NCBI GenBank assembly: GCA_015056565.1
Contig: SVGB01000014.1
Span: 1-64,000, forward strand
DNA length: 64,000 nt
Origin: Butyrivibrio sp.
Lineage (GTDB): Bacteria > Bacillota > Clostridia > Lachnospirales > Lachnospiraceae
Direction of reading: 5' to 3'
Shown here: piece after piece, positions 41,750 to 44,266 of the stretch
Layout of the letters: every line of letters starts with the position of its first letter
Numbering within the stretch: the first letter of the stretch is position 1
The notes under the pieces: generated by a model
Told to the model about the DNA's origin: nothing
The model's input: the letters and a program-made list of their open reading frames with translations, nothing else
Database searches by the model: none
Translations under genes and position numbers: made by a program

Positions 41750-41872
41750 TAATAGTAAATGGTAACAGGACCGAAAGAGTTGTTGTTTTTGAATTGATGA
41801 TATTATAGTATTAGTAATAGGGGACTCAAATAAAAGACATATTATAATACAACATAAGAAAGGAAATGTTCT

Positions 41873-42019
41873 ATGACATATGCAAATGAAAATGTAAATG
41901 GGGTAGATTTTATACTGTCACTACAGAATTCAAACGATTACGACAATACTAACGCGTGGGAAGTAGACTCCTGGCCAAACTATGAGGAGTATCACGACTC
42001 TTGGTATAATGCCTACTAA
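41873..42019 (+). CDS. Putative RiPP precursor peptide (48 aa), not in ORF track
   Basis: MTYANENVNGVDFILSLQNSNDYDNTNAWEVDSWPNYEEYHDSWYNAY; AGGAA 7 nt upstream; immediately followed by and overlapping a radical SAM/SPASM gene. Confidence 0.75.
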   Translation: MTYANENVNGVDFILSLQNSNDYDNTNAWEVDSWPNYEEYHDSWYNAY

Positions 42020-43148
42020 TCCAGCGTTTATAACACCAATCATCAAGGTGGTTGAACACTGCAATTTTACTTGTGAATATTGCAGGTATGCCAACCACCC
42101 ACCCAAAGACAACTCTATTATGTCTGTGGAGTTGTGCAAGAAGATCATAAAAGAAGTATGTGAATATAATATTTCTCAAGGTATATTTAATATTTCCCTT
42201 ATTTTTCATGGAGGAGAACCTCTGCTTTGGGGAAAAGATAGATTTGAAGAAATCTATCAGTTTGAACAGGATCTTAGGAAAGAGTACCCTGATATTAAAA
42301 TAAAAAATGATGTTCAGACAAATGCTTTCCTTATCGATGAAGAATGGATATGCTTGTTTAAAAAAATGAAGTTTGACGTGGGGATAAGCATTGATGGTCC
42401 CTCTGACATTAATTTTCATTATGGGAAGATGGGCCAGAAAGCTTCTACGGAAACTGTATTAAAAAACATCCATTTACTACAGGAAAATGGTATTAAACAT
42501 GGGATTTTAAGTGTTATTACAGAAAAGCATTTCCCATATGCTAAAGAATATTTTGATTTTTTGGAAAATGAAAAAATAGATAATGCCGGATTCTGCTATT
42601 GCTATAATCCGTTAGATGATTATGCAATTGATGCAGAAAGGCTTGGTAGTTTTTTGTGTGAGTGTTTTGACATATACTACAATTCTGTTCGCAGAGTCCA
42701 TATCCGAGAATTTGAAAATTTAATCAAAAGGATTTATGGCTTACATAAAAACAGTTGTGTGTGTAAAGAACGTACAGATTGTGGCAATTTTATGGCATTT
42801 ACACCAAATGGAACAGTATGTTTTTGTGACGCTTACGAAAAGGATTCAAAAGTAGTAGGCAATATCCAAGAGGAAGATATTCTATCTGTAATAAACTCCA
42901 AATCATATAAGGATACTAAGGCAGAATATTGCTCAACAGCTGAAACAACCTGTAAAGATTGTGAATTTAAGTGTGTTTGTGGCTGTGGATGTTCAAGAAG
43001 TGATATCATTTTGGAAAGTGGTGAACGTAGAAATTATTTTTGCTCGACTAATAAAATTCTTTGCAGCCATATTTTAGAAGTTGTTAAAAATGATAAAAGG
43101 CTGGCTGAACAGAATCAGAAGATTATCGAACCATTAAAGCTCCTTTAG
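42009..43148 (+). CDS. Radical SAM/SPASM peptide maturase
   Basis: CNFTCEYC (CxxxCxxC), FHGGEPLLW; SPASM Cys cluster CVCKERTDCGNFMAFTPNGTVCFCDA...CKDCEFKCVCGCGC. ATG 42009 overlaps the precursor stop; the track start is 41982. Confidence 0.9.
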   Translation: MPTNPAFITPIIKVVEHCNFTCEYCRYANHPPKDNSIMSVELCKKIIKEVCEYNISQGIFNISLIFHGGEPLLWGKDRFEEIYQFEQDLRKEYPDIKIKNDVQTNAFLIDEEWICLFKKMKFDVGISIDGPSDINFHYGKMGQKASTETVLKNIHLLQENGIKHGILSVITEKHFPYAKEYFDFLENEKIDNAGFCYCYNPLDDYAIDAERLGSFLCECFDIYYNSVRRVHIREFENLIKRIYGLHKNSCVCKERTDCGNFMAFTPNGTVCFCDAYEKDSKVVGNIQEEDILSVINSKSYKDTKAEYCSTAETTCKDCEFKCVCGCGCSRSDIILESGERRNYFCSTNKILCSHILEVVKNDKRLAEQNQKIIEPLKLL

Positions 43149-43201
43149 GGGGCTGATCAAATTTTTTGAGTGGTTGCCAGAGTTTAGGGCTATGTGCATA
43201 G

Positions 43202-43321
43202 TCAGACGTGGTTTCTACAGGATTCCATGGATGGGAGCATATTCCAGAGGCTCTTCAGCTTATGAAGGACAAGCCTGCTGACCTTATCAAGCCTGTTGTT
43301 ATTCTTGATAACCAGCCTTGA
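43202..43321 (+). pseudogene. C-terminal remnant, zinc-dependent alcohol-dehydrogenase-like
   Basis: Frame reads SDVVSTGFHGWEHIPEALQLMKDKPADLIKPVVILDNQP* directly after a stop at 43199; resembles an MDR C-terminus. Confidence 0.5.
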
Positions 43322-43350
43322 ATAGAATAAACTGAATTTTATAGAATCAG

Positions 43351-43376
43351 AAGGACGGTCATTGGCCGTCCTTTTT
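43351..43376 (+). terminator. Rho-independent terminator
   Basis: AAGGACGG(TC)-ATT-(GG)CCGTCCTT followed by TTT. Confidence 0.85.
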
Positions 43377-43438: not shown

Positions 43439-44266
43439 ATGAGTGTAGAAGCATATTTAAATCCGGATTTTACAGTAGGCAAGAAGCTCTTATTTCTTTT
43501 AGTGACAGCTGCCTTATTAGGAATCGGAATAGGGTTTATATATCTGGTATCACTTCTTGTTCTCGGGAGAGACATACCGGTGGGAAACAGGAAACAGGCA
43601 GTTCTTGGAGCACTGGAAGACAAGGTACAGAGATTTTTTGAGATGATAATTGCAGGGACTTCCGTTATGTCTTTTTCCTGCGCATATGTTATCATCAACC
43701 ATGTGAACACTCTGGTACAGTCAGGAGTAGCAGGGAATCTGACGCCTATGGAACAGCGCCTTATTGAGGCCTGGGCAGAGGGCAAGGACTTCGTGCTTCT
43801 TTTGCTTATCTGTTTATCCTGTGTGATCAATACTATTTTGGATTCTCTGATCATTCCTTTAAAGAAGCTGTCCAAGGCGGAAAAGGCTACCATGAGGATG
43901 CTGGCGATGTTCTATGTCATTATCCTTTTGATGTACCTTAACTACATCGGAGATGAAAGTCAGTATAGCCCGGTTATGATGTATTATTTTGGCTTGATGA
44001 TAGGTAGATTTGTTTACTTTGATGCATCCTTTAAGGATTTCCTTGAAGCTTTAAAGAATATGTTCTTCAACCTGCCATATATGGCACTTAGCCTTGCTTT
44101 GACAGGCGCGTTGTGTGCCTTTGGCTTTGGTGTTGGATATTTCCTTGAAAGAAATTACTTTATCATGGGTATTTTCTATACACACTTGTTTATGCTTGTC
44201 TGCATATTTGTTATCCATCTTGTGTGGATGATAGTTAAATGTGCTGGCAATAAAGATAAAGAATAA
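43439..44266 (+). CDS. Hypothetical multi-TM membrane protein
   Basis: Several hydrophobic segments; no family recognised. Confidence 0.7.
   Translation: MSVEAYLNPDFTVGKKLLFLLVTAALLGIGIGFIYLVSLLVLGRDIPVGNRKQAVLGALEDKVQRFFEMIIAGTSVMSFSCAYVIINHVNTLVQSGVAGNLTPMEQRLIEAWAEGKDFVLLLLICLSCVINTILDSLIIPLKKLSKAEKATMRMLAMFYVIILLMYLNYIGDESQYSPVMMYYFGLMIGRFVYFDASFKDFLEALKNMFFNLPYMALSLALTGALCAFGFGVGYFLERNYFIMGIFYTHLFMLVCIFVIHLVWMIVKCAGNKDKE

Follow-up and report, generated by a model that had tools for sequence, protein, structure and literature searches.

Three-residue cyclophanes are known from separate enzymes: OscB forms them between Trp and Asn or Asp, XncB between Trp and Asn or Trp and Arg, and YxdB between Tyr and Asp (PMC11002830). 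Predicted two-gene clusters with Aro-Xaa-Asn precursors also exist, and the radical SAM network of Kostenko et al. (2022) contains unassigned clusters (19, 27 and 63) of predicted RiPPs within the sulfatase-maturase subfamily, with precursors that carry Aro-Xaa-Asn or Aro-Xaa-Xaa-Asn motifs built on W or Y (PMC9062424). The stretch of DNA analysed here (the window; 64,000 nucleotides of a Butyrivibrio sp. contig, SVGB01000014.1) carries a short ORF with motifs of this kind directly ahead of a radical SAM/SPASM gene. The two genes may well be a minimal RiPP cassette in which the enzyme closes several adjacent three-residue cyclophanes of the triceptide type, mixing Trp and Tyr; judged from the sequences, the probability of this reading is roughly 60%.

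The precursor and maturase genes

A homologous precursor-maturase pair, in the same order and with the same kind of overlap, is carried by the Clostridiales MAG NALB_7961_5 (L001), and the features of the window pair are best read beside it:

41860..41864, + strand: Shine-Dalgarno-like AAGGA, 8 nt before the precursor ATG (read directly)
41873..42019, + strand: precursor peptide of 48 aa, MTYANENVNGVDFILSLQNSNDYDNTNAWEVDSWPNYEEYHDSWYNAY (sequence, homologue at L001:5850-6002 and codon comparison)
41873..41956, + strand: presumed leader, residues 1-28, with the conserved stretch NG[VI]DFIxSLQNSxDYxNxNA (alignment with L001)
41939..41947, + strand: aromatic-x-Asn motif 1, Y23-D-N25 (YGN in L001)
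41957..42010, + strand: presumed core, residues 29-46, WEVDSWPNYEEYHDSWYN (alignment with L001)
within the core, + strand: triads WPN (34-36), YEE (37-39), YHD (40-42) and WYN (44-46)
42009..43148, + strand: radical SAM/SPASM maturase of 379 aa (ORF, profiles and alignment)

Direct reading bore out the precursor sequence, coordinates, ribosome-binding site and stop/start overlap proposed in the initial annotation. The last 11 bases of the precursor ORF overlap the maturase start (ATG 42009); an alternative in-frame ATG lies at 41982, and the homologue favours 42009. The boundary between leader and core would fall between residues 28 and 29. The peptide matches no precursor family model among the NCBIfam and Pfam profiles, and it is short enough to escape many annotation pipelines. 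A promoter scan gave nothing above shuffles, and no Rfam families were found in the window.

The L001 precursor is an overlapping 50-codon ORF, MANTQEFNNGIDFIQSLQNSQDYGNENAWEVDSWPNYEEWHDYWNDYSGA, ahead of its maturase. It is 67% identical to the window precursor, and the maturases are 72% identical. Between the precursors, 31 of 48 residues are identical in register, and 19 of these 31 shared codons differ synonymously, arguing that the protein sequence of the precursor is under selection. The dN value is 0.15 in the C-terminal part vs 0.38 in the N-terminal part (dS is too high for an estimate), and a block of 13 residues (27-39), NAWEVDSWPNYEE, is invariant. The genes that flank the two loci are unrelated. 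This comparison with the homologous pair argues that the short ORF is genuine and under selection; in both genomes it is coupled to, and kept together with, a radical SAM/SPASM gene. The initial annotation had suggested scanning for short ORFs ahead of other maturases of the type; such an ORF is present in L001, the sole close homologue, but not in the more distant relatives viewed (a sulfatase maturase and a Cetobacterium plasmid enzyme). Nothing similar was seen upstream of the Cetobacterium radical SAM gene (H14/L028) or of H21/L029.

The assignment of the larger gene to the radical SAM/SPASM enzymes, also made from the sequence at the outset, holds: both domains were found (radical SAM PF04055, 62 bits; SPASM PF13186, 35 bits), the CX3CX2C motif is retained as C18, C22 and C25, and the SPASM cysteines, aligned to 4k36/4k37, are C315-x2-C318-x5-C324-x3-C328. 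The top NCBIfam match is the sulfatase maturase model TIGR03942, at 203 bits (cut-off 349). Significant similarity that stays below the cut-off was found to makers of aromatic cross-links, namely DynA (159.6 bits, cut-off 450), GrrM/OscB (135, cut-off 310), YhhB (130, cut-off 445), AmcB (126, cut-off 425), XyeB (113, cut-off 450) and FxsB (105, cut-off 370), so that none of the curated cut-offs of the last five is reached; the DarW model scores 131.8 bits and the DarE model 103 (cut-off 650). The L001 maturase behaves likewise, with 193 bits against TIGR03942 and no named cyclophane family reached. These scores argue that the pair lies outside the sulfatase-maturase, DynA, GrrM/OscB, YhhB, AmcB, XyeB and FxsB families, and among the named families they place the window enzyme closest to the sulfatase maturases, ahead of every cyclophane maturase. 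A structure prediction from the two sequences was unusable (mean pLDDT 44).

Genomic site and distribution

The surroundings of the cassette were compared with the same site in other genomes of the genus. Three further features lie there:

41753..43305, + strand: variable segment holding the cassette, of low GC and absent from the close relatives G470 and G428
43202..43320, + strand: zinc alcohol dehydrogenase remnant, matching the gene at 1767-2834 of L020 (genome G424)
43350..43375, + strand: intrinsic terminator hairpin with a T run (z -4.5), common to relatives without the cassette

The GC content of the cassette is 32-35%, vs mostly 41-45% on both sides. In G470 and G428, whose flanks are about 90% identical to those of the window, hardly anything separates the DUF3048 gene from the stretch that leads up to the gene at 43439, and in G424 a zinc alcohol dehydrogenase and a CobW-type GTPase occupy the same site. 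The remnant in the window joins a 29-bp internal scrap of the dehydrogenase gene (43202-43230) to its 3' end (43222-43320). The absence of the cassette from G470 and G428, the dehydrogenase and CobW genes in G424 and the dehydrogenase tail here together argue that the cassette sits in a variable site. It may have been inserted here, or it may have been lost from the relatives. No transporter or protease adjoins either the window copy or the L001 copy, which extends to both loci what the initial annotation had seen at one.

Several other observations concern this region. The junction in G470, which corresponds to window positions 41752 and 43306 (L019), falls at a GATAA repeat that would allow a small deletion; the repeat copies are TGATAA after DUF3048 and GATAACCAGCC in the dehydrogenase tail. 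The 3' end of the dehydrogenase gene and the terminator recur in many genomes of the genus at 78-92% identity, sometimes as a short relic, whereas similarity in the flanking genes is mostly about 70%; L021:1824-2180 is an internally deleted copy of the gene. Positions 43439-44266 encode a 275-aa protein, apparently of membrane type, that is present in most of the genus and has no Pfam match (E 1e-5), and positions 35636-38617 encode a 993-aa protein with at least two modules of AAA ATPase plus lid.

The cassette is rare, and one other copy, in L001, was found. No third precursor-maturase pair turned up among 1,987 genomes, drawn from samples that overlap, or among viral contigs, phages and plasmids. 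Searches for a maturase of the same type returned none from 78 further genomes of the genus, from the family, order, class and phylum samples or from the genus of the relative, at strict thresholds (E 1e-40 to 1e-60) and in overlapping samples, and distant relatives may exist; maturase searches of viral contigs also found nothing. Several candidate matches were set aside. When viral contigs were searched with the precursor alignment, L023 and L024 gave exact nine-residue matches to AWEVDSWPN, which are ascribed to chance since the surrounding 374-aa ORF resembles a phage structural gene. The plasmid and phage tblastn matches are all below 30% identity and mostly annotated as sulfatase maturases, the sole other match in the phylum sample (L022) is a true sulfatase maturase, and PADLOC matches to viperin reflect the shared radical SAM domain only. 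A 9.4-kb plasmid of Cetobacterium somerae (NZ_CP092524.1) carries an orphan radical SAM/SPASM gene that overlaps an MFS transporter gene (L028:2953-5377); it scores 248 of the 349 bits set for the sulfatase maturase model, and no clear precursor was found with it.

Conserved motifs and the predicted product

The initial annotation based its case for cyclophanes on the aromatic-x-Asn/Asp triads. The triads are present, but their count alone is weak evidence in one peptide: the 4-5 aromatic-x-N/D/E triads stand only weakly above those of shuffled peptides (p about 0.09-0.18), because the peptide is so rich in N/D/E and in aromatic residues. The aligned pair is more informative. All five triads are kept in both precursors, as YxN, WPN, YEE, [Y/W]HD and Wx[N/D], with YHD 40-42 replaced by WHD and WYN 44-46 by WND in L001; the exchanges from the window to L001 (Y40 to W, N46 to D) thus stay within the motif class. 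In the gapped alignment, five of the seven shared Trp/Tyr residues have N/D/E at i+2 in both peptides, namely Y23, W34, Y37, Y/W40 and W44, the partner of the last adjoining a 2-residue indel such that this acceptor is maybe not strictly homologous. The corresponding counts at i+1, i+3 and i+4 are two, one and two. Joint permutation of the aligned pairs gives p 0.006 for i+2 over the whole peptide and 0.011 over residues 21-48, values that come from one comparison of the two known family sequences, and the same shuffling gives no enrichment at the other spacings. W29 is invariant and lies off the motif, with V at i+2 and D at i+3.

The spacing conserved here is that of the aromatic-x-Asn/Asp motif of triceptides, from i to i+2, with Y and W, and N and D, interchanging, which makes a poly-cyclophane peptide the best inference for the product. 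The mixture of W and Y with N and D that was put forward at the start also fits: W-N/D, W-N and Y-D rings are each known from a separate system (PMC11002830). In the proposed scheme, the precursor would be the substrate. Its N-terminal part (NGxDFIxSLQNSxDYxN) would serve for recognition and its C-terminal part would be the core, and translation of the maturase would probably be coupled to that of the precursor through the overlap. The maturase would take a beta-hydrogen from an Asn or Asp, perhaps also a Glu, that follows a Trp or Tyr at i+2, and the beta-carbon would then be joined to the aromatic ring. Up to four three-residue cyclophanes could form, or five counting YDN, with a loss of 2 Da each, and the rings at residues 34-42 would lie directly side by side. 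The leader could be removed and the product exported by enzymes encoded elsewhere, or the product could stay intracellular. Ring chemistry, ring number, the leader/core boundary, processing and biological role are all predictions.

The family scores invite another reading: the larger gene could encode an anaerobic sulfatase maturase that has diverged and whose target protein is encoded at some other locus, with the short ORF being a chance ORF or a leader. TIGR03942 heads the matches, the best PDB relatives by sequence are the anSMEs 4k36/4k37, and the anSME sequence CDFY aligns with CDAY here. However, the TIGR03942 score falls 146 bits under the cut-off, while a true anSME used as control (L022) scores 401 bits and exceeds it; the PF00884 sulfatase profile has no match in the genome of the window (G000, 87% complete), with 10 of 14 control genomes positive, and none over the cut-off in the genome of the relative; and what the two loci have kept of the short ORF is its protein sequence rather than its DNA sequence. 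The low score and the failure to find PF00884 render a sulfatase maturase very unlikely. The originally proposed reading as a precursor with its radical SAM/SPASM maturase is well supported, by the conserved pair, the overlap, purifying selection and the sulfatase that was not found.

A RiPP pair might nonetheless carry some other modification, such as rings from i to i+3 (WEVD and others), aryl ethers or C-N links as in darobactin and dynobactin, an ester or cross-link through Asp/Glu, or epimerisation. This has an appreciable, if minority, chance of being right. In its favour, W29-x-x-D32 is unchanged between the two peptides, the models for DynA and DarW give some of the better HMM scores, scores below the cut-offs leave the chemistry unfixed, and Aro-Xaa-Xaa-Asn precursors are predicted for another cluster of the same enzyme subfamily (PMC9062424). 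Against it, one shared aromatic residue has N/D/E at i+3 whereas five have it at i+2; the precursor has no Cys for a thioether variant; and the core, unlike that of darobactin, has no Lys or Arg. A further possibility, an improbable one, is that no secreted cross-linked product is made: the peptide may instead be processed into a small cofactor or a signal, or may remain bound to protein inside the cell. Such a role would suit the lack of transporter, protease, immunity and regulator genes beside either copy, the unrelated flanks and the failure to find a C39 peptidase in the genome of the relative. Yet two genes for C39 peptidases occur elsewhere in the genome of the window, other two-gene radical SAM RiPPs are predicted (PMC9062424), and as to chemistry this reading overlaps the cyclophane explanation.

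A more far-reaching version of the cyclophane reading is doubtful at present. The pair would belong to a new triceptide-like family, in which one enzyme links Trp and Tyr to Asn, Asp and also Glu in contiguous three-residue cyclophanes, so that WPN-YEE-YHD and then WYN form a rigid ladder of adjacent rings, and it would be a stand-alone cassette moving between anaerobic Clostridia. Glu, which YEE would require as acceptor in either version, is not among the partners listed in a review (PMC11002830). If the cyclophane reading in general is right, the cassette would represent a rare maturase branch in anaerobic Clostridia that is separate from the compared families with names, and one whose substrate packs Trp and Tyr triads closely together and may use Glu as a partner. 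Both genes lie within 1.3 kb, which makes the chemistry easy to test and maybe useful in peptide engineering.

Comparison with known systems

The enzyme shares its domain layout and cluster cysteines with the anSMEs (TIGR03942; PDB 4k36-4k39), its nearest HMM family, and differs from them in its conserved partner peptide, in the sulfatase that was not found in the genome and in its score (203 vs 349 bits). The darobactin and dynobactin maturases DarE and DynA are related SPASM enzymes that also make aromatic cross-links; the window core is presumably unlike the cores of their precursors. The cassette resembles clusters 19, 27 and 63 of the radical SAM network, a likeness drawn by description only and one in which cluster 27 has the spacing i+3 (PMC9062424). 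Compared with the triceptide systems, the cassette has no transporter or protease nearby and a precursor outside the family models. It is like the triceptide enzymes (XncB/XyeB, OscB/GrrM, MscB/FxsB, YxdB, YhhB and HaaB) in pairing a radical SAM/SPASM protein of about 380 aa with an adjoining short aromatic-x-Asn/Asp precursor, and unlike them in mixing W and Y motifs in one core, in having Glu in one motif and in placing triads directly next to each other.
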